From: Candidatus Saccharimonadota bacterium | Lineage (GTDB): Bacteria > Patescibacteriota > Saccharimonadia > Saccharimonadales > Saccharimonadaceae | Length of the DNA: 64,000 nt | Assembly (NCBI GenBank): GCA_024699125.1 | Contig: JAILQE010000006.1 | Span: 1-64,000 of the forward strand | Reading direction: 5' to 3' | Part shown: positions 11,010 through 41,152 of the stretch, in pieces | Layout: the number at the start of each line of letters is the position of its first letter | How positions within the stretch are numbered: position 1 is the first letter of the stretch | The notes under the pieces: generated by a model | Seen by the model: the letters and a program-made list of their open reading frames with translations, nothing else | Told to the model about the DNA's origin: nothing | Databases searched by the model: none | Made by a program: the position numbers and the translations under genes

Positions 11010-12203
11010 TTATTTATTCATCGCCCAATCAGCGACGTTTTTCCCGTCAGGGAGTTTTTTGTCTTCAACGAAGAAACTAATAATCGTTTCACACTGCCGT
11101 CTTTTAATATCCTCATACATTTCGATCGTCTTTTTATAGTCATCCGAGGTCCATCCTGCAAACGTTTTTTTCACTTCACGAACCACGTTATCACTGCTAT
11201 CATAATCAAAATTAACTCTGATTGGTAAACGGTTTTCATCCTTTAGACTTCTTTCGATAACTGCTTTGGCTGAGCCTTTTTGCGATAAGACAGCTGCTAT
11301 CGTCAAGCCTGCAAGTGTCGAGTTTCTTACTCCGCCACCGCCATCAGACATCGCATAGTTTAGACATTTTATCTCTTCTTCGCTCAATCCTTCCTTATTT
11401 TTATCTGACATCATAACTGACACTATTTTTCCTCTCTCTCTAACTGAATAAATATAGATTTTCTTATCGGCAAGTTCCTCACTCAATAGCCCATCCTTCA
11501 CCATTTGCTCCTGCAGAAACATATTGGCAACATCGTTAATTTCTTCAACTGGTATTATACCGTTTTCAGTGATAAAATTCTCTCTACCAGAACCATCATC
11601 GCTATCCATGTCTTCGTCAAGTCTAATCTTAATATTGTCGTTATGTGCTACGACGTCGTTAGCATTAGACACGTTCCCATTTTTGATTAGCAAGTAAACC
11701 GCCCGGGACGTCCTACCGTTGCCATCTGAAAATAGGTGTAAATTATTAATTGCGTAATAGGCCAGAAGTGCCTTTTTCTCTTTATCATCTATCTTTTTAA
11801 TTGCTTCAAAATATTCATTAAATAATTCCTTTTGCAATTCTGGTTCTGGAGCAATAAGGTTTTTTGTACCGCCTAAGGTCTCGGAACCGACCATCATTCT
11901 ATGGGTTTTATCACCATATATTTCGCTCTTTTTTGAAACTTTTTCATTGCGTAATTGGCTATTTATATGTTGCAAAAAATCTAACGCCGTTGCCGAGTCC
12001 ATCTCGTTCAGCGCCTCATCAACGCTTTTTTCTTTTCCGTCTTCGCCGCCGCGCGCTTTTGCCAGCTCAACAAAACGCTGGACTCTTTCTCCTCTTGTTC
12101 GCTTCATGTGTGTATCAAAGTTTGGTTCCAAAGAAGGGCTCTGTTCGGTTTCTACTTGCTCTTGTCCGCCTGGGTTACTGTTTATTATTTCGGAATTGCT
12201 CAT
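11010..12203 (-). CDS. Fic-family AMP-transferase
   Basis: 397 residues. Residues near 174-185 contain HLFSDGNGRTSR, the catalytic Fic motif (HxFx[D/E]GNGRxxR) with the essential His, the phosphate-binding GNGR and final Arg. A charged N-terminal 60 residues is probably disordered; the C-terminal half after the Fic core is helical and unassigned. Fic enzymes transfer AMP or other phosphate groups onto protein hydroxyls; targets may be own proteins (toxin-type) or, if exported, host proteins. No signal peptide is seen. TATAAT with a later AAGGAG makes this a leadered transcript, divergent from ychF. Confidence 0.85.
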   Translation of the reverse strand: MSNSEIINSNPGGQEQVETEQSPSLEPNFDTHMKRTRGERVQRFVELAKARGGEDGKEKSVDEALNEMDSATALDFLQHINSQLRNEKVSKKSEIYGDKTHRMMVGSETLGGTKNLIAPEPELQKELFNEYFEAIKKIDDKEKKALLAYYAINNLHLFSDGNGRTSRAVYLLIKNGNVSNANDVVAHNDNIKIRLDEDMDSDDGSGRENFITENGIIPVEEINDVANMFLQEQMVKDGLLSEELADKKIYIYSVRERGKIVSVMMSDKNKEGLSEEEIKCLNYAMSDGGGGVRNSTLAGLTIAAVLSQKGSAKAVIERSLKDENRLPIRVNFDYDSSDNVVREVKKTFAGWTSDDYKKTIEMYEDIKRRQCETIISFFVEDKKLPDGKNVADWAMNK

Positions 12204-13294: not shown

Positions 13295-13322
13295 AGAGCC
13301 GGCTAAGACCGGCTCTTTTTTT
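13295..13322. terminator. Bidirectional terminator after ychF
   Basis: AGAGCCGG (13295-13302) / CCGGCTCT (13309-13316) with six-base loop, A-run before and T-run after. The T-run touches the stop codon of the convergent surface-protein gene. Confidence 0.88.
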
Positions 13323-16300
13323 ATTCTAGTACGGCGTTCTTGAAGGCAGTGATGAGGGCTTCGTCGGCAGCTTGGTCTGTGCTGCCAGCCATGAACCATT
13401 CATAGATTTGTTCTTTGGTGCTGAGATACGTCATCATGTGGGTGAACTTGTTGGTGTCGTTTCCCTTTTTCTCGTAGTAACGAGTACGATCTGAGCGGCC
13501 GGAGAGTGAGGTGAGTTCATAGTCTTCATAACGAGTTTCATCATCTACACCAAGCAAACCTTCAAGCAAATATGCAACGGTACCCGCACGGTCTGAGCCG
13601 GCACTACAGTGGAAGTAGATGTTCTTAGGATTTTCCGTATCGGCGATATCCGTCATGATATCTTTTACGGCCTTACGAGTCTTGCTGTAATCGCTGCTAT
13701 CGTTTAGCTCGTCGCCTTCGTGGTATGAGAACTCATAGTGAATCACTTGGTCGTGAGTAAAGAGTTGCAATCTTGAAGCAGGTGGGTTGATAGCGTTCTG
13801 TTCACGCAAATCATATTCTTTATTGAAGCCAAGGTTCGTGAGGTCGGTAACCGTAGCGGAAATACCATTAAAATGTTCACCCCGCATCAGACGGCCATAC
13901 TTAATGGTTCTGCCATCCGTAGTTGGGATGCCGCCAAGATCGCGAATGTTGCGGGTTGGACCAGCAGTAATAAAGCGGCGATTATTGGTGGACTTTGCTT
14001 TAACGTAGCCGTAGACACTGCTGTCATCGGATTTTTCCCAACGATAGGTTTGGCCCGGGATCAAGTTATATAATAGACCAGAATCTGATTTTGTATACGA
14101 AACTTCTTCGATCACGTTTCTGGTAGATTCGTCTACCAGGAACACTCTCATGGCATCAGTGAGACCAGTGTCGTATGGGACTGAGCCATCGCACGCTACC
14201 GTACCGCTGGCGCCATATTTATACTCGAAGTTATTGTCAACATTTGGGTTATTGGTCGTTATGCTACATTCGTTGTTGTCAAAGTTTTGCTTGAGTGCCG
14301 TTAGTAATGCATTTTTATCAGTGTTCCAGGTCTGAACATTTGCAAGATAGTTTTCGGCAGCTGGGCTGGAAACTGTATGTTCTACGATTTCGTCGCTGGA
14401 TTCATATGTATTGTATACGGTGGAGAGGTCGAGCAAGCTGACTGGGACTTCGATAACTGGGCGGATGGCAGAAAGCTTATTGGCGGATACAGCGATGTTG
14501 CCGATATAGCGGCTTTGGGCATCGACCCTAAAGACGTTTTTGTTGCTACTGACTGGAGTCTCAGCCCAGTAGTTGCTTCTTAAGCCCGTAGTTTCAAAGT
14601 TCGTGTTTTCGAACAAGAATGCGCAGCGGTTTGGAATTTCACCAGCGGTTGCGCTGGTGCTGGCTTGTACGTCACAGGCCCTGTACAAATCCTGTGCGGT
14701 AACTAAGCGAGCAGCTTTGCCCTCATAACCGAATGCGGAAGTTGGTAAACCATTTGCAATCGGCATGCCACTTTGGCTGACAATTACGTGTGGAATTGAG
14801 TACAAATCAAGGTTGGTCCAGGATGATGAAGCTGGCAAGTATTCCACCGCCGTAGTTGGGCCTTCTTGGTTGTTGCTACCATAATTATGGTTGGTTGTAT
14901 TGTCTACATGATCGGTCTCGTAGTTGTTGGAGTAGATGAGCGCGGCGTAATTATCATAGGTAGTGAGATAGTAGAATCTATCAGTGTAGTTGCCGTCACC
15001 GTTAAGATCGCAGTCGAAGGCGTCGCCAGCGGTGAGCACATTGTCTGATACACCGCCACGAACTTGGCCATAAGTAATGATGTTGTTGGCGCCAGTGTAT
15101 CCAGCGGCTTTACAACCTTTACCGTCCTCGCTAGCACAAGTCGCTGTATGGATAGTGGAAGCTGTGGCGCGTTTACAAGTGAAGCTATCTCTTACTCTCT
15201 TGTAGTAGGTAACGTCTCCGGAGATTATGGTACTAGACTTCAATGCTGTGCCACCAACTTTTTGCGTAAACCAACCGGTGAAACCAGTGTCTTCTGCGGT
15301 TGGGATATTTTCAACCGTACCGCCGTGGGTGACTGTGCGAGTAGTGATAGTTGATTCATTGTTGTCCTTGAAGGATACTGTGTAAGTATCTGCTGGGTGA
15401 ACCGTGATGCCCACAGTCTTGGTAGTTTCAGAAAGCGCACCCGTGATTGTAATAGTAGTGGTACCTTCGGCGACTGCAGTAACTAGGCCATTTTCATCAA
15501 CCGTTGCGATCGATTCATCCTCCGAAGCAAAGGCATGTGGTTCGTAGTCGTTGACGTTTGTGATATTAATTTGCTCGGTTTCGACTGACTCAAGACGTAA
15601 TTCAATATTTGAATTGGTAACGTCGGCTGAAGAAATATTTTTAACCCAGTGCGCAGTGTAAGAAATATCGGCAGTAGGAGTGATCTCGCCAGCAAATGGA
15701 CCATCATCACCAATGTACCAACCGGTAAATGAATAGTTATTGCGGGTTGGGGTTGGCAAGGTCATCGATTCGCCAATTACAATCAAGTAGGCGCTTGGGG
15801 CAATTGTTGTTCCATTGCCAAGTAGGTTTACTTGATAGTGAGATTCGCGATCATCACCAAGCCTAATTTGCATATTGCTGAGCGTGCCTTTTAGTGCACG
15901 TTTGTAACCACGATCTAGTACGGCTTGATATGGCTCGTCTGGTTTTGCCGGAGTGGCACCAAACCAAGTGGTGATATCAAATGCGTCGTCATTTGAATCT
16001 TCCAAGGTCTGTATAAGGGCCAGGGTGCCGCCGTTAAGGCTGTACCAAATCTTGTCGTTTTTACGAACAATTCTAACCGTGGTGCCGCTAGCCGTTGCAC
16101 CGTCAAACTTTGGAATTGGATTTTGTTGGCCATCGTTTTTACGGTAGTTGATTTCGATATCACTACCGCTACGGCGCACAATCAAACCAGCTCTTTTGTT
16201 TTCGGTGTCTTTGGCACTCACAAATGTTTGCTGTTTGTTTTCGTCGTCATAAAGTGGGTCAGGTTGTTGTGCGGACGCACTGTAGTCGTCGATTGTGAAG

Positions 16301-18123
16301 AGAATTTCGTAATTTTTATCAATATTGGCCGCATTGTAAAGTGAAACGCCAGTATCAATATATGGCTCACTTACATAGCTGGTGTCGCCTTGGCGACATT
16401 CGTCACCGGCAATAATGCCATTGTAAGCATCAAACACACATGGACCGTTCACCGAGAAGACGATCGGATATTGCCTATCATACCAGTGCGCATAGACCGT
16501 AACCTCGCCGGCTGGCATACGATATGAACCGTCGATTTTTACGGTTTCATCTGTATCGGGAACTGTAGTGAACCAGCCCATAAAGTCCCAACCATCGCCG
16601 CGATTTGGTGTTGGTAAGGTGCTTTCATCGATTTCTTTATCATATTCAAATTCTTGGTCACTAATTGCCGGAGCGTTTTCGTAGTTGGCAATAAAATGCA
16701 TTGCGTATTTGTTTGCACTCCAGTGCGCATAGTAAACTTTGTCTTCCACGATTACGGTGTCGGCAGTAACTTGATCGCCGCCTTCTTGGGCGGTAAACCA
16801 ACCAACAAAGCTAAAGCCAGTGCGTTCATCTACTGCAGATGGCAGTTCACTGCCAATTGTGTCACCGTAGAGTTTGGTGCTAACCGTGATTTCATCTTGA
16901 CCATTAATAGTGCCGCCGTTGGCGTTAAACTTAATGGTTTGCACTCTACCTTCAAAGTGGGCAGTGTATTCGCGGGCGCCGGTGCTGCCTTTGGCGATGG
17001 TAACAACCATATTATTATCGCCAGTAAGACCAGTACCGCTCCAGCCGGTAAAGTTGTAGTGTTCTTTGGTTGGACTTCCTAAAGTGATTTGATCGCTTTC
17101 GATATTGTATGACGTAGTTGGGTCTTCAAATTCAGCACCTTCGAGGCCATAATAGCTAATTTCATAATTAATGGTTTTCCATTTTGCGTATAGTTCAACA
17201 TCAGCACCATCTACGGTCGTGAGGTTGCTTTGAGCTTCGCTTGCGTTGTAGTATGAACCGGTACCATCAGCGTTGGTGGTCCAGCCATCAAAGTCGTAGC
17301 CATTTCTTGTGAAGCTACTTGCGAGGTTGAGTGACTGATCGTACTCAGCGTCAAGTATTTCCATGTTGCCTTCGCCGCCGTTAGCGCGGAAAATTACGCG
17401 ATAACGGATTGGGCTAAAGTGCGCATAAATAGTAACGTCGCCAGAGGCTTTGTTGTGCTCATTGTATGGAGAATCATCTTCGTTGAACCAACCTTCAAAA
17501 CGGTAGCCGGTCTTGGTGAGTTGTGGCAAAGCACCGATTTCTTCGCCATCGGCTTTATAAAATTCGGTTTCTTCGACGCCTTCGCCGCCGTTTAGATCAA
17601 GTTTAATAGAATGCCAAATTGGTTCTGGCTGCGGTTCTGGCTCTGGATCTGGTTCCGGCTCAGGTTCTGGTTCTGGTTCAGGTTCTGGCTGTGGCTCAGG
17701 TTCTGGTTCTGGCTGTGGCGTCGGCTCAGGTTGTGGCTGTGGAGTCGGGGTAGGTGTAGGAGTTGGGGTTGGGGTTGGGGTTGGGGTTGAGGTTGGCTCC
17801 GGTTCCGGCTCAGGCTCTGGTTGTGGCGTCGGCTCAGGAGTTTTATTCACACATTTACCATCTTTTAGGATCTGGTTTTCTTTACAAGTTGGGGTTTCCG
17901 GCTCTTTCTCTGGTACTTTTTCACAGATATGCGTCAAAATTAAAAGCGGCGCCGCGATTAAAGTGATAATCAGCGCAATAATCCAAGCGCTAATTTTGCC
18001 AGCTTTGGCTTTTTTAATAATTAAAACGATGACTATAATAATAAGAATTATTAAAATTAGCCAACGCAAAATACCGATAAAATTATCGGCAGATACCAGA
18101 GATAATATATTACATTTTTGCAT
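13321..18123 (-). CDS. Giant surface protein: InlB repeats, Ig-like domain and C-terminal tyrosine phosphatase
   Basis: About 1600 residues. Two membrane segments near the N-terminus (about 15-35 and 45-65), a [14 protein letters not shown] module, then a Pro-Glu/Pro-Thr stalk (about 98-168). Next come several Listeria-Bacteroides (InlB B) repeats with YRFEGWF, YDFDGWT, YNFTGWS, FSFVGWF and WDFMGWF signatures (about 175-560), a lectin/LamG-like region (about 560-765), another InlB repeat, a Big_2-like Ig domain (about 835-910), and a region ending [12 protein letters not shown]. The last 220 residues are a Y_phosphatase3-type domain: [15 protein letters not shown], and the P-loop [10 protein letters not shown] near residue 1504. 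Start at 18123 because a promoter overlaps the upstream extension. Probably an adhesin presenting a phosphatase to the host cell (inference). Confidence 0.85.
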
Positions 18124-18182: not shown

Positions 18183-19112
18183 CTAAATTTCAAACCAGTC
18201 CGCTAGTTTGTAGCCAGCGCCAATAACGCTCGCCGCAGCAAGGTGCGGGTTGAAATTCTTGAATTGTGGATGAGTGTGCAAAAACGCTTCGGCGGCAAAA
18301 TGCATTTTTTCAAGTTTTTTTGCGGTAATCGCTTCGAACGGCTGGCCGTGAGTGGCGGATTTGCGGTATTTTACTTCGGTAAAATAAATGTCGTTTTTAA
18401 TAATCGAAATTACATCGATTTCGTAATATTTGGTTTTGAAGTTGCGCGTTAAAATTTGGTGGCCTTGGTCCTCTAAGTAATCTGCCACAATTCCCTCGGC
18501 TTTGCAGCCGATTTTAGTGGTATTTTTGGCTGGAACTTTTTTAACTGGGCCAAACGAAAAACGGTGTTCTGGGCAAGGGCCAAACTTGGCGAGTGCTGCT
18601 TGATGTGCAGCAGTGCCGTAGCCTACGTGCTTTTCGAATCCGTATTCTGGGTATTCGTTGGCGAGCTCATACATGTAGTGATCACGCGCAACCTTAGCGA
18701 TAATTGAGGCGGCAGAGACTTCCTTTACGAGAAAATCGGCCTTAGGAAGAATCGAAACGTAGGGTGCAAGTTTGGTGCCGACTAGAAAATTATTGGTACC
18801 ATCGATAATAATTTCGGTGAACAGCACGTGCTGAGTCTGCACGGCGATAACGGCGCGACGCGTGGCGAGTTTTAGAGCATTCGATAAGCCAATCTCGTCT
18901 AGCTCACGGCTAGAAACCCAGCCAAGGCCGGTGGCGGCGGCTTCTTTTAAAATAATTTCGTTCAAGGCTTCGCGTTTTTTTGCGGTGAGTTTTTTGGAAT
19001 CGGTGAGTTCATCTACCCAGGATGGTTTTTGATCCGGCAAAATTACTGCGCCAATCACGAGCGGGCCCGCCCACGGACCGCGACCAACTTCATCTATCCC
19101 AAGAATTGCCAT
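18183..19112 (-). CDS. rnhB: RNase HII fused to a YraN/UPF0102 endonuclease-like domain
   Basis: 309 residues in two domains. Residues 1-195 are RNase HII: GIDEVGRGPWAGP (Asp7, Glu8), IIIDGTN (Asp104), an Asp at 126 and SAASIIAKVARD, so the DEDD metal site is complete. Residues 200-309 are UPF0102/YraN: GCKAEGIVADYLEDQG, then YYEIDVI and FTEVKYR giving a D...E-x-K restriction-endonuclease-like core (Asp233, Glu246, Lys248). rnhB and yraN are neighbours in many genomes; here they are one polypeptide, which could couple ribonucleotide removal to a second nicking activity. Leaderless-like GATAAT lies eight bases before the ATG. Confidence 0.93.
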   Translation of the reverse strand: MAILGIDEVGRGPWAGPLVIGAVILPDQKPSWVDELTDSKKLTAKKREALNEIILKEAAATGLGWVSSRELDEIGLSNALKLATRRAVIAVQTQHVLFTEIIIDGTNNFLVGTKLAPYVSILPKADFLVKEVSAASIIAKVARDHYMYELANEYPEYGFEKHVGYGTAAHQAALAKFGPCPEHRFSFGPVKKVPAKNTTKIGCKAEGIVADYLEDQGHQILTRNFKTKYYEIDVISIIKNDIYFTEVKYRKSATHGQPFEAITAKKLEKMHFAAEAFLHTHPQFKNFNPHLAAASVIGAGYKLADWFEI

Positions 19113-35208: not shown

Positions 35209-38200
35209 TTAGAGATTAAGGTATTGACGCACTCTCTCATCTCTAAGGTTGTGCGAGATTCTAGGGTCAGAACGTGCCCTAGTGAGTGAATCACTGATTG
35301 TGGCCGTAAATGCAGTCAAAGCGACCGGGTTTGGTTTTGTTGGGTCATTAGGGTCTTCACCAACAATTGCTATCAAAGTCGTTAAGTCTAACTTGGCAAT
35401 TTCGGCTGGGCCAAGATTTAGCTGGTTGTAGAAATCCACAGCAGAGTGGCCAGGCCCAATAGTAGATGTAAAATCGGTCTTTTTTAGAGCAATCATCTCG
35501 TTTGCATATCTGAGCTCATCGCCAGTCTTGCCAATAGCACCCTTTTTAAGTTCTCCGACATCAAGTTTGCTAATAGTCCTGGACCCATCAGGAACAGCTG
35601 GGGTTCGTCTATCTTCCCTGTTGGTTTGAGAAATAATGAACTTCATCTCATTTTTACTCATCTTATCAACGACGTCACCACCCTGATAGTTGTTGTCAAC
35701 AAAGGCTTCAAAGCTGTTGTATTGAAGATCATCGTTTGCCGTGAGAGCAGCGTTGCCAGTGGCACCACCTCTTATCCATTCTTCATATGACACAGCGTTG
35801 GCTTGATTGCCAGCCGCAGTCATTTTTGCCAGATATTTCGCAAAACCCTTGCCAGAGATGGAGCCGGTTTTGCCCATGATTTCGATGTACGAATCCAGCT
35901 TCGTTTGATTGTTGCGAATCTCTTCCCAGTTAGCCGTACTGAAGTTGGCGCTACCAATCGCTGCACCAAGTACTTCTTGCACATCATCAGAAGCCCCCAT
36001 TTTAACCATGACGTCAGCGAGTGCTCGGACGTCGTCCATATTCGTATCCCCAGTTCCGGTACCTTGTTGACTAATAAGCCGCGTAAGTTCCGCTTTCTGT
36101 TGGGCAGGGGTCAAAGAGCTAAACTGATCAAAGTATGCCTGGTAAGACTCACTTCGGCGTTTTGAGGAGACACGGCTTCTTGCAGTAGCAAGGCTTACGG
36201 CTGCAGCCGGGTTCTCGGCTTGAGCAATCTTGGTGTTAAATTCTGATTCAACGCCTGGTGCCAAGGAATTAGTCATAACTTCTTCGTAGTCTATACCATT
36301 CGCAGCTCCATAATCTTGTCTTGCATTATATTCAAGCCTATTTCTCTCCCTAGAGATCCGCTCGTCTTGCTGATGCATTCTAGCTGCATTGGTCGCCTCT
36401 TCAAGGCTCACTCTGTCTAGACCGGTAGTGGCCCTTGCTTGGCCCAGCCGCTTATTAAACTCAGAGTCCGTATTAATATTCTGCTGCCTACGCATGGTTG
36501 CAATATATAGGTCACGGGCAGCATCGTTGTCGCCACCTTTAAGAGCATACTCTCGCTCTTGTTTTTCCAGTGATAATTGAGTGTCCTCAACTCTTGTTCT
36601 GGCCTGGTGGCGGGCCATTTCGATTGTGATTTCAGGTGAGAGGTTTTCGGCATCGCCCATCTTAACGTTGAAGGCATTTTGCGCAGCGCGACCCTGGGCG
36701 GCGTCCATTGTTGCGACGTAGTCGCCTTGGTATCCGGCGCGAGCGGCAGTTTCCTGAGCCTCTTTTTGTTTGTTGAGGTAATTGTCTTCGTATTTTTGGA
36801 TATCTTTTGCTCGGCCGAGCGTTCTGTTGGCGGCCGCAAGTTCCCTTCTGGCTCTTCGTCTATCGGCGATAGAGGAATTTGGATCGCTAAGCGTATTAAT
36901 AGCGGCTCTTCTTTGGGCTTCGGCATCAGCAACCTGCGTTGCGTCTACGCCGTTCCTTCTGCGATGGCGTTGTTCGATAGCTTCCCTCGTGGTGCCACGA
37001 CGAAGCGCTTCAGCGTCTTTACGGCGATCTTGAGCCTCTTTGTAGTGCTCGGTATTCTTGATGCCATCGGTGGCTCTCTTGCGGATACCACGGCCAAGTT
37101 GAGACATCCTTTCACCAAGCGAGGTGACGGCGCTAACGGCCTTAGCGACAAGCGACGGGATAAAGAAGTATGGGAACACGAGGATGGCGGCGATCACGAC
37201 AGCACCAATAAAGCTACTGCTAGCATCGGACATCATCCTAGCGATAAGTCTAGACATACCTTGTACCAAGCCACACATTGGGTAGACCAGCATCAATGCT
37301 TTAAACCCATTGAGCCACTTGTCGAAATACTTCTTGGTGTTCGGCAGCGCGTAACACACTATCGCCAGAGGCGAAATCGCGATCAAAGTAATGACAGCCG
37401 CTTTGCGGATACCGAGTTGTACGAAGAAGAAGAGGATTGCGATCAAGACCACCAATAAGATAATCAATGCGCCAAATAGGAATGAAAGTAGGTTGTGGTC
37501 TAGAACCTTGAACGTGACGCCAATGCCAACGGCACCAAGGCCAGCGACTGCCAAAAGGTTGCCAATGAAGTTGACGATGCCGCCATCGCCTGGGCTTTCA
37601 TAAAGAGAACTACTTCCTACTTCAATATTGTCTAGGAACCCTTCAATGTTGACGCCGATAATATTCGTGACGTCCACTACAATCTGACAAATGATAAACG
37701 AAAGGTTGATGAGGATTGCAACCATAATGAGTTTAGGCAAAACGCGTTTGATGCCGTAGTTATCGATGCCATAGCCGGTGAGTTGCGAGAAGATTACGAA
37801 TAGGAACAAGATTACCAAAATAATGTTTGCGATATTCACGAAGGATTGCCATACGGTGTATGTACCGGATTCTTGGCTGGTCTCTTTTCTATCCATCGCG
37901 ATCCAGGTTTCCGAAATGCTGTCATAAATTTTACTGGCCGCATCGGTCATAAACCTTGCAGCCTGACAAATTACCCAGCCCATCACAACTTGGCCTTCGC
38001 AGGTCTCGGTCGTGTCAATGTTTAATGTAGCACTTGGGTCAAGATTTCTAACCTCATCGAGTTCTACTAGCGAACCGGATGCCGCCCTATTTTCAAGTTT
38101 GGTATTATCACCGGTTACTTCTGCCCAATCTTTAGGTAAATGGCTTTCAATATATTCTGCTGAACCGCACCCGGTTATAATATTTTCTTTATTGTTTTCT

Positions 38201-40113
38201 TCAAAATGTTCGATACCAATAAGAATTTCTTTTAGGGCATTTCTTTCTTTTGTAACTTTAGGCTGCGCGCCCTCTGGAAGTTGGTGGTCATATCCCGGGA
38301 GGGAGAGTTTTCCGGCGCTACTTTTCACCGTATCTACGCTAATAAGGTCATCAAGAGCTTTGTTCACATACTCTATCTTCTTGTCGTAGTATCTTTCTTG
38401 CCTTGTAACATTTTCTTCTGCGAGATCAATTTCTTCAATTGGCCCAAATATAGTTTGAGCTTTAACGACTGCGTTATATATTTCTATGTTTTCGTTCCTA
38501 GCTGCCTCGTTGCTAGTAAACATATCCTTGTTACATTTATATCTGTTATAGCCGTATGGATCAGTATCTGGGCGTTCTTCATACATGTGAAAACAGTTAG
38601 CGTAGTCGCCGCCGCGTGCAGCTGATTCGACTTTCTCAAATGCAAGAGAGTTTTCTTCAATCTCTTCCTTATGGTCCTCAAGATATTTATCTCTATATTT
38701 TAGATTACAATAATAATTGCCGTACGCGCCATTATTATTCATAGTATAGCTATATAAACAGTTATAGACATACCCCCCATCATCACCGTTAAATTTTAAG
38801 TTGGTCTGAACGCTTTTTCTGATTTTTCCGATTTCGTCAAACTTCGTGGTCTTAATGCTGTCTACGACCTTTCTCTTTTGAGCAAGCTGGGTTTCGTAGT
38901 CGACGGCACAAACATCTTTATACTCTCTTTTAGCATTTTCCTTCAATGTTGACATGGCATATAACCAGACCTTGTCAGGAGCATCAGCGCGGCATGAAAG
39001 CTTATCTGTTTTTAGCTCGTATTTATTAGAGCCATCGAAGGCTATAAAGTTAGCATTGGCAAAATCACTCTCCGTTATTCTGCTAGGAACAAAAAATTCT
39101 GTACGCACTAGGCGCGGATAATTATCTGCCCCTTTGGTTACTACTGGATAATAGTACGTATTGCCGTATTCGCTTTTTTCTCCGTTATACTTTGAGCACC
39201 TATTTTTGTATGCTTCGGCGTATTGATAATACTGTTCATATTTCGTCAGGGCGAGGTTGTTAACGTAATCTTGAGTATTGTTGTATTCCCTTAATAAATC
39301 TTTTACCTTGCTAAGGCATCCGTCAAATGTTCCACATGTTGTGTTCAGGTGTATGTCGTTTCCACCTTTACCAATATCATCATTGGCGATAGCTATTCTT
39401 TCATAGCATTCTTTATTTTTGTATTCACTTTTTTCATAATACATATAATCCGTATCAACTTCATTACCAGGCTCCAGACCTAGCGCACAGAGAATTCTAC
39501 CTTTTTCATAGATCGCAGTACTCCCTAGGTTTCCTAATCCTTCCCACGTTAAATCATTTTTTACGACACTCGACGACTTGTTCCTTATCGCCACAAAGCT
39601 CTCTATCGTTGCAGCAATAAGGCCTTTATTGCCGCTACTACCAAATATAGTACTATTACAATAGCTATGTGTGCCCAGGAGCGAATCCGTTTTCAATGTG
39701 CCTTGTTTTGTCCAATCATATCGATCCCATACCGTCTGCACTTTGGCATTGTTATCCCTCGTATCACCCTCAATTACGCCTTTGAGCGCGCTGCTTAATG
39801 TAAGCGCGTCGTCCTTATCCGTTGTGCGTGTATCAAAACTATCGTGACTATCGTCACGGTTCATTTTGTATAGACACGATGCTAAAAGTGATGCATAATA
39901 CTTCGCTTCCCACGTTTCTTTCGGGGATATGACTTTTTCTGTTGATGTACCGCCATTGTTCGTCGGGTCGGCTAGCACCGTGCTGCCCACGGAGCCAACA
40001 ATTGTCAAAGCAAAGGCTAGAAAAACTATGGCCCCGAGGCGGATTTTCTTAAACAAAAAACCGTGTCTGCGAGACTTAGCACCATCAGAATTAGTATGAC
40101 CAGAAGTGCTCAT
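35209..40113 (-). CDS. Giant VirB6/TrbL-like secretion membrane protein
   Basis: About 1634 residues. N-terminal signal/anchor (GAIVFLAFALTIVGSVGS), then about 700 exported residues rich in Tyr, Asn and paired cysteines, a block of six or more membrane segments (about 750-985) including TGYGIDNYGIKRVLPKLI, LLSFLFGALIILLVVLIAIL and RKAAVITLIAISPLAIVCYALP, and a 640-residue charged helical C-terminal part with many Ala/Arg/Gln segments (about 990-1634). The membrane block follows the VirB6/TrbL order of type IV secretion channels. The start at 40113 is six bases after TATAAT (40120-40125). Such enlarged VirB6 proteins may reach across the envelope; partners VirB4-like are at 60.6-63.4 kb. Confidence 0.78.
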   Translation of the reverse strand: MSTSGHTNSDGAKSRRHGFLFKKIRLGAIVFLAFALTIVGSVGSTVLADPTNNGGTSTEKVISPKETWEAKYYASLLASCLYKMNRDDSHDSFDTRTTDKDDALTLSSALKGVIEGDTRDNNAKVQTVWDRYDWTKQGTLKTDSLLGTHSYCNSTIFGSSGNKGLIAATIESFVAIRNKSSSVVKNDLTWEGLGNLGSTAIYEKGRILCALGLEPGNEVDTDYMYYEKSEYKNKECYERIAIANDDIGKGGNDIHLNTTCGTFDGCLSKVKDLLREYNNTQDYVNNLALTKYEQYYQYAEAYKNRCSKYNGEKSEYGNTYYYPVVTKGADNYPRLVRTEFFVPSRITESDFANANFIAFDGSNKYELKTDKLSCRADAPDKVWLYAMSTLKENAKREYKDVCAVDYETQLAQKRKVVDSIKTTKFDEIGKIRKSVQTNLKFNGDDGGYVYNCLYSYTMNNNGAYGNYYCNLKYRDKYLEDHKEEIEENSLAFEKVESAARGGDYANCFHMYEERPDTDPYGYNRYKCNKDMFTSNEAARNENIEIYNAVVKAQTIFGPIEEIDLAEENVTRQERYYDKKIEYVNKALDDLISVDTVKSSAGKLSLPGYDHQLPEGAQPKVTKERNALKEILIGIEHFEENNKENIITGCGSAEYIESHLPKDWAEVTGDNTKLENRAASGSLVELDEVRNLDPSATLNIDTTETCEGQVVMGWVICQAARFMTDAASKIYDSISETWIAMDRKETSQESGTYTVWQSFVNIANIILVILFLFVIFSQLTGYGIDNYGIKRVLPKLIMVAILINLSFIICQIVVDVTNIIGVNIEGFLDNIEVGSSSLYESPGDGGIVNFIGNLLAVAGLGAVGIGVTFKVLDHNLLSFLFGALIILLVVLIAILFFFVQLGIRKAAVITLIAISPLAIVCYALPNTKKYFDKWLNGFKALMLVYPMCGLVQGMSRLIARMMSDASSSFIGAVVIAAILVFPYFFIPSLVAKAVSAVTSLGERMSQLGRGIRKRATDGIKNTEHYKEAQDRRKDAEALRRGTTREAIEQRHRRRNGVDATQVADAEAQRRAAINTLSDPNSSIADRRRARRELAAANRTLGRAKDIQKYEDNYLNKQKEAQETAARAGYQGDYVATMDAAQGRAAQNAFNVKMGDAENLSPEITIEMARHQARTRVEDTQLSLEKQEREYALKGGDNDAARDLYIATMRRQQNINTDSEFNKRLGQARATTGLDRVSLEEATNAARMHQQDERISRERNRLEYNARQDYGAANGIDYEEVMTNSLAPGVESEFNTKIAQAENPAAAVSLATARSRVSSKRRSESYQAYFDQFSSLTPAQQKAELTRLISQQGTGTGDTNMDDVRALADVMVKMGASDDVQEVLGAAIGSANFSTANWEEIRNNQTKLDSYIEIMGKTGSISGKGFAKYLAKMTAAGNQANAVSYEEWIRGGATGNAALTANDDLQYNSFEAFVDNNYQGGDVVDKMSKNEMKFIISQTNREDRRTPAVPDGSRTISKLDVGELKKGAIGKTGDELRYANEMIALKKTDFTSTIGPGHSAVDFYNQLNLGPAEIAKLDLTTLIAIVGEDPNDPTKPNPVALTAFTATISDSLTRARSDPRISHNLRDERVRQYLNL

Positions 40114-40156
40114 GCTTAAATTATAGCACGCGGCATCCGATTTTTTGGAGCGGAGT

Positions 40157-41152
40157 TTATTCTTCATAGTCTAGGCCTTCATAATCATTGTCATAATCAT
40201 CTTCGTAATCAACTTTTACCTTGTCGCTGTCAACACTAAACAGAATCTGTTCCAAATCATCAAGATTAACAGCTTGGCTAACAGTATTAAGCAAAACTTT
40301 AATTAGCGATTCTTTAGCATTGCGGATATAAGACGAATCAAATTTCCCAGAAAAGGTGCCGTAGTATAGCTCGTCGTTTAAAGCGCAGTAGGCTTGATTG
40401 TAGTTTGAGATCGCCTCATCCACATCAAAGCCATCTACGGTGAGGCCGTCCATGTCGCTCGCGGTCACTTCGAATGTGCATGGCTTGGTGGCGGTATCCT
40501 CATTAAGACTCTCTTGCACTGGCGTGATAAAGGCATCGTAAAAGGCACGCAAAGTAGTGATGTTGGTTTTTATATTTTCGAGGCCTGGTTTGATATTGGC
40601 CACAACTTGGTTGGCGTCATCATTAATGGTTGCGCCAAGGATGTTGAAATCCGTGTCGGCAACTTTTTCAAAATCATCCTCCAGCGCGTCGCTCATGATT
40701 TCGAGCATGATCAAAGTAGCTTTTTTCACGATAAACAGTTTATTAGTGTCTTCTAGCTCGTATGCCATGTCTTCGACTGGCTCATAGCCGATTTCGCTAT
40801 AGTATTCGAGGAGGTCGCTGTAATCTTCGTAAAAATTCTCCAGAACAGTGAGTTTTTCTTTGCGGTCGGCAGCCTGGGCTTCGCTGGCGGCGCGGTTGCT
40901 GCTAGTGATAGCGACAATCGCCAAAATAAACAGCGTTACCACGGCAAGGCCGATGCCGGCTAGAATCAGGATGCGTTTTAAGCCAAGCTTTCCTCCTGGT
41001 TGGCTTGATGTCAAAACAATATCACCATGTGCGTTTGAATAAGAACCGCCAAATTGGATGGGGTCAGAAACCGGTGGCCAGGCGTTATTTTCTTGCCCAC
41101 CATTAGGAGTAGACGGCTGTGCGCCGTAAGGATTTGTGTATGACGAATCCAT
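40157..41152 (-). CDS. Single-pass membrane protein, hypothetical
   Basis: 331 residues: a 55-residue Pro/Gly/Asn-rich cytoplasmic start, one membrane helix (about 60-85, ILILAGIGLAVVTLFILAIV), then an exported acidic helical domain containing two cysteines and ending in an Asp/Glu/Tyr-rich tail (EDDYDNDYEGLDYEE). The layout parallels the protein at 20344. TATAAT (41162-41167) is nine bases from the ATG. It lies just upstream of the VirB6-like gene (44 bases), which keeps its own promoter; a role with that apparatus is only suggested by position. Confidence 0.6.
   Translation of the reverse strand: MDSSYTNPYGAQPSTPNGGQENNAWPPVSDPIQFGGSYSNAHGDIVLTSSQPGGKLGLKRILILAGIGLAVVTLFILAIVAITSSNRAASEAQAADRKEKLTVLENFYEDYSDLLEYYSEIGYEPVEDMAYELEDTNKLFIVKKATLIMLEIMSDALEDDFEKVADTDFNILGATINDDANQVVANIKPGLENIKTNITTLRAFYDAFITPVQESLNEDTATKPCTFEVTASDMDGLTVDGFDVDEAISNYNQAYCALNDELYYGTFSGKFDSSYIRNAKESLIKVLLNTVSQAVNLDDLEQILFSVDSDKVKVDYEDDYDNDYEGLDYEE

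Follow-up and report, generated by a model that had tools for sequence, protein, structure and literature searches.

PtpB (MptpB) of M. tuberculosis, one of the atypical lipid phosphatases, acts as a secreted or extracytoplasmic enzyme, as the protein described here is predicted to do. Mutagenesis of the lipid-phosphatase signature HCXXGKDR has shown that its Lys matters for substrate binding and its Asp for catalysis (PMC3091653). The C. difficile PTP (8dhi/8dhj) stands alone, comprises some 240 residues and has a GKDR P-loop, and Pho16B, a PTP with phytase activity from a soil metagenome, joins a Y_phosphatase3 domain to a signal peptide (PMC6409689). B-type repeats are found in extracellular-type proteins such as Listeria InlB and the List_Bact_rpt (Flg_new) proteins.

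The protein that we analysed likewise carries B-type repeats in an extracellular-type protein; unlike InlB, however, it has no leucine-rich-repeat match in Pfam and bears an enzymatic head in its place. It also differs from the stand-alone C. difficile enzyme, from Pho16B, which is short and has no stalk, and from PtpB, in that its phosphatase domain terminates a very large anchored protein with many repeats. In the partial library that we searched, we found no description of enzymes so displayed on Patescibacteria and no relevant paper linking Saccharibacteria to such a phosphatase. We consider it probable (about 0.7) that the protein is a membrane-anchored, outward-facing ectophosphatase on an adhesin-type stalk, with a gut-related extracellular substrate.

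A giant protein ending in a phosphatase domain

The window, the whole 64,000-nucleotide stretch that was analysed, contains a single intact ORF at 13321-18123 on the minus strand, which starts with ATG and encodes 1600 amino acids with zero internal stops. Its features are as follows.

13321..18123 (-): whole gene, 1600 aa (translated ORF)
17938..18072 (-): N-terminal two-helix membrane hairpin, residues about 18-62 (hydropathy, charge count)
17614..17847 (-): PE/PT-rich stalk, residues 93-170 (sequence)
15202..17610 (-): region with Flg_new/InlB B repeats (Pfam)
17419-17610, 17182-17403, 16723-16938, 15652-15837, 15202-15384 (-): Flg_new stretches above threshold (Pfam)
15853..16461 (-): conserved module, formerly the "lectin-like" segment, residues about 555-757 (comparison with relatives)
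15400..15567 (-): Big_2 Ig-like domain, residues 853-908 (Pfam)
14419..15201 (-): Cys-containing module, residues 975-1235, common to Saccharibacteria and Bacilli relatives (L029, L070, L062, L065)
13969..14376 (-): helical and beta-strand domain directly N-terminal of the phosphatase, residues 1250-1385, with invariant Cys pair C1286/C1311 (AlphaFold2, alignment)
13393..13956 (-): Y_phosphatase3 (PF13350) catalytic domain, residues 1390-1577 (Pfam, AlphaFold2, structure matches)
13930..13950 (-): NIRDLGG motif, residues 1392-1398 (sequence, alignment)
13582..13611 (-): P-loop of 10 residues, 1505-1514, with predicted nucleophile C1506 (sequence, alignment)

Translation and Pfam confirmed the layout given in the preliminary description, namely an intact ORF with membrane segments, a PE/PT stalk, InlB B repeats, an Ig-like domain and a Y_phosphatase3 end. 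In the Pfam scan, Flg_new matched six times (1.2e-52; total score 176 bits, cut-off 27), Big_2 matched residues 853-894 (3e-8), and Y_phosphatase3 covered the C-terminal part (4.4e-27; score 96 bits, cut-off 22.2); TIGR02543 repeats scored 117 bits against a cut-off of 21. One element of that layout was given up: the segment that had been called lectin-like (residues about 555-757) had no better than chance-level matches in Pfam and, also when searched as a family profile, none among PDB sequences, although it is a conserved module that occurs, usually in two copies per relative, in nearly all Saccharibacteria relatives.

The AlphaFold2 model of the last 351 residues reached a pLDDT of 94.8 and a pTM of 0.93 with an input of 54 aligned domains including the window's own; with 15 sequences, the pLDDT was only 71. 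In the model, two helices and a set of beta-strands run straight into the phosphatase. Its top PDB structure matches were M. tuberculosis PtpB (1ywf, Z 16.9) and the C. difficile PTP (8dhj, Z 16.5), followed by a group with lower scores (Z 12-13). These two were also top by Foldseek and sequence profile, where the C. difficile PTP came closest (profile 4e-11). The window domain shares with PtpB the fold, the Cys-x5-Arg P-loop and Asp at position 6, at 19% identity in the structural alignment. An HCx5R P-loop in a predicted PTP fold places it in the cysteine-dependent PTP superfamily.

We found that the catalytic residues are conserved throughout the family. The P-loop H, C, G, D and R are invariant in 54 of 54 aligned domains (pattern HCxxGxDR; HCSAGSDR in the window), the D being the Asp at position 6; the Arg is followed by T (49 domains) or A (5) and then, in all 54, by G. 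In the NxRDLGG motif, N, R and GG are invariant, and the D is D in 52 domains and E in 2. Counting against the main reading, the Arg of a YDLR motif is lost in most genus-mates (YNVG). Substitution rates indicate purifying selection, as dN is much lower than dS in each of six close pairs (dN/dS about 0.03-0.1, worked out from dN and dS, with a high dS of 2.05 in one of the six and dS not computable for the window and L029). The invariance of the catalytic residues, together with dN far below dS, indicates that the observation is not due to chance. The loops described as intact-looking were thus conserved across the family. Together, these data strongly support the prediction that the phosphatase is catalytically active. 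That the domain is instead a catalytically dead, phosphate-binding adhesin appears very unlikely: other giant surface proteins of the genome do end in non-enzymatic-looking regions, and the window P-loop is non-consensus, but Cys, Asp and Arg are invariant in all 54 domains, under strong purifying selection.

The P-loop also sets the family apart from its described relatives. At position 5 the window has S and most domains have A, with A, S, T and V the residues seen across the 54; the Lys of HCxxGKDR is absent from every one. The window domain has the Asp at position 6 and the [TA]G after Arg of the MptpB/LipA group but not its P-loop HCXXGKDR[TA]G, and it cannot be counted among the atypical lipid phosphatases, of which this Lys, also present in Pho16B, is a defining feature. 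Its chemistry is nevertheless expected to be the same as theirs. For the same reason, the characterised activity of PtpB-type enzymes is not simply transferable to the window protein, and the likeness drawn earlier to secreted phosphatases that manipulate hosts (PtpB, Listeria LipA) is limited by the Lys missing in all aligned members.

Predicted topology and membrane anchoring

In the N-terminal hairpin of the window protein, the loop (KKAKAGK) has a charge of +4, the N-tail 0 and the segment after TM2 -2. A similar hairpin, with a loop of +4 to +6 and tails of 0 to -4, is present in L029, L106 and L111-L113 (the count covers the window protein and these five relatives with a correctly placed start; it leaves out L107, L108 and L110, which were read from a wrong ATG). 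Since the loop is positive and its flanks are neutral or negative, the positive-inside rule predicts that both ends lie outside (N-out/C-out). One Cys pair, C80 and C91, lies between the hairpin and the PE/PT stretch; a second, C1286/C1311, is kept in all 53 domains that cover that site, as would be expected of an exported domain. The window's genome, however, gave no VKOR match, so that a disulphide route is at most putative.

Other relatives differ in their N-termini. In one layout, an N-terminal signal-like helix is followed by stalk and phosphatase and then, mostly, by a C-terminal TM; in another, the signal-like helix precedes a domain of ~150 residues, two TMs, stalk and phosphatase. The membrane and signal-like helices of all these proteins were called from hydropathy alone. 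Each of the three arrangements can place the phosphatase outside. On the basis of the charge rule, the Cys pairs and the signal-like N-termini of relatives, the sequence evidence points strongly to a location of the phosphatase domain outside the membrane, and the surface display on an InlB-repeat stalk proposed at the outset is supported at the level of sequence. One might instead place the C-terminus in the cytoplasm and give the phosphatase an internal regulatory role, because the window copy lacks a signal peptide of the classical kind and a pair of N-terminal helices does not by itself determine orientation. We regard this as exceedingly improbable in view of the charge distribution, the conserved Cys pair, the adhesin-type repeats and the signal-like N-terminal helices of the homologues.

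A position of the phosphatase at the tip of the adhesin, as the preliminary description had it, is not a family trait, because in many genus-mates the domain adjoins the C-terminal TM, ending roughly 60-120 residues before it.

Two further observations concern these proteins. L062, L065, L033, L071, L109 and L114 begin with an N-terminal domain; in several of them, two TM helices joined by a basic loop come next, preceded by an NPxTGD-like sorting motif, an arrangement that resembles a sortase-type signal inside the protein. In addition, a membrane protein lies downstream of both signal-peptide-type phosphatase paralogues (L002 370-1329 (-), L003 350-1312 (-)); identification of the C11-paralogue neighbour as a WxL-interacting protein (WxLIP_PGBD) was rejected at 18.8 bits, below the cut-off of 27.3 (L002 scanned).

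Distribution in Saccharibacteria and rumen Bacilli

The genome is, as supposed, of an epibiont type, Saccharibacteria; it measures 765 kb, is 98.8% complete and encodes many giant Flg_new proteins, three of which carry the phosphatase. The others that were read by eye have different ends: L118 (both ORFs), L121 and L122 end Fib_succ_major-like, L119 has DUF285-like repeats near its end, and L120 ends otherwise. PF13350 matches occur in 13 of 60 genomes of the genus, 42 of 295 of the family and 7 of 380 of the phylum. A search for the same architecture in relatives found giant phosphatase proteins in two Saccharibacteria genera, g1 and g8, and nowhere else among the surveyed genomes of the phylum, where open frames were of 500 residues or fewer. 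The PF13350 proteins read outside g1 and g8 have 206-396 residues, and some are fused to a T4SS-pilin-like segment; two such pilin-joined phosphatases belong to g8.

These short Saccharibacteria proteins (L096, L097, L100-L104, L115, L116) combine Y_phosphatase3 with a T4SS-pilin-like two-helix segment in either order and have the P-loops HCxxGKDRTG or HCVIGRDRTG. The segment scored just under the PF18895 cut-off in Pfam scans of one protein of each order. Phosphatases go unmentioned in a paper on the T4SS of Patescibacteria.

We also found the phosphatase module, at about 35-46% identity to the window, in eight loci named Bacilli, Bacillales or Erysipelotrichaceae, in ORFs of 682 to 2691 residues, several of them cut by contig ends. 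L062, the Bacilli locus scanned with Pfam, has ten Flg_new stretches in addition to the phosphatase. L062 and L065 resemble Saccharibacteria relatives in their N-terminal domains (best E 4e-33 or lower, BLASTP among these sequences), and the module of residues 975-1235 is also common to proteins of both groups. Misbinning of the Bacilli contigs is unlikely, because the GC content of the eight loci is 26-30% as against 40-48% in the compared Saccharibacteria, and because the neighbours in L065 and L067 are Firmicutes-like (pfk, prfB, ftsE/X, yitT; tilS, ftsH, dus; translations read by eye). In the tree, the Saccharibacteria and Bacilli sequences form one clade (100/100), apart from an outgroup of Bacteroidales and other Firmicutes; seven Bacilli sequences group together (100/100), nearest to one g8 Saccharibacteria sequence (95/95), and the eighth stands apart. 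A mobile-element origin was rejected: plasmids gave weak partial matches and phages one such match. That Saccharibacteria and rumen Bacilli have this multi-module protein in common suggests gene exchange and, perhaps, a common ruminant-gut substrate.

The distribution bears directly on the proposal that the adhesin binds the epibiont's host bacterium, whose surface proteins or polymers the phosphatase would dephosphorylate. Cultivated Saccharibacteria live as epibionts, one of which has essential proteins with predicted glycan-binding domains (PMC10633639), so that the identity of the genome speaks for such a role. An internal substrate, moreover, is not obvious, since the window's genome gave no Hanks-type kinase, which fits an external substrate without proving it; a TIGR01007 (eps_fam) match there was rejected as a tyrosine kinase at 60.7 bits against a cut-off of 108. 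The same protein, however, occurs in Bacilli with Firmicutes-like surroundings. The carrier Bacilli are, by their taxonomy, presumably free-living or non-epibiotic. Given also that roughly one genome in five of the genus has a match, that matches are scarce in the phylum and that the tip position is not conserved, the idea that the enzyme faces the host bacterium is not supported, and we consider it unlikely. Occurrence in Bacilli and patchiness instead favour a function in the gut niche, and the sharing warns that Saccharibacteria surface proteins need not all target the bacterial host.

A candidate role in the ruminant gut, and neighbouring genes

Searching the named collection gave 66 loci, and the Saccharibacteria and Bacilli hits with animal titles come from sheep, goat, buffalo, yak and roe deer gut; the other record titles are run or isolate codes only, and the ruminant-only origin may partly mirror which MAGs the collection contains. 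As an outward-facing ectophosphatase, the protein would be held in the cytoplasmic membrane by its two-helix hairpin with both ends outside, and the flexible PE/PT stretch, the InlB-type repeats and the small domains would carry the PtpB-fold cysteine phosphatase outward. By analogy with PtpB, the P-loop Cys would act as nucleophile, the Arg would bind phosphate and the Asp at position 6 would serve as acid/base, together removing phosphate from an extracellular substrate. Candidates for this substrate, common with Bacilli, would be mucosal, protozoal, plant or microbial phospho-compounds of the ruminant gut, and the data lean slightly towards a gut-wide substrate of this kind over one specific to the epibiont's host cell. 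The invariant catalytic residues and the anchored adhesin-type stalk make this a concrete, testable activity.

Two narrower proposals concern the substrate. A nutritional phosphatase, releasing phosphate or sugars from phosphorylated compounds of plant feed such as inositol phosphates, would suit the herbivore-gut distribution and has a precedent in the hydrolysis of phytate by Pho16B, which has a signal peptide and a Y_phosphatase3 domain (PMC6409689). It is nonetheless doubtful: the Pho16B P-loop contains Lys, activity on poly-phosphorylated inositides correlates with the number of basic P-loop residues (PMC3091653), of which the window has the invariant Arg only, and a 1600-residue adhesin-type stalk would be costly for scavenging. 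A more specific version holds that an ectophosphatase passed horizontally between Saccharibacteria and Bacilli of the ruminant gut has eukaryotic targets, either phosphoproteins or lipids of the gut lining or of ciliates, and that related genera mount such heads on T4SS-pilin-like proteins. This is quite improbable as a whole; were the substrate eukaryotic, the epibionts would be direct players at the animal interface.

Three other genes of the window were noted. The ORF at 11010-12203 (-) encodes a protein of the Fic/DOC family (score 35 bits, cut-off 24) with HLFSDGNGRTSR, and it adjoins a gene for a GTPase that by eye resembles YchF. At 18183-19112 (-), Pfam identified RNase HII fused with a UPF0102 (YraN-like) nuclease domain, and 35209-40167 (-) encodes a TrbL/VirB6-like membrane protein of 1652 residues with a Pfam score below the cut-off.
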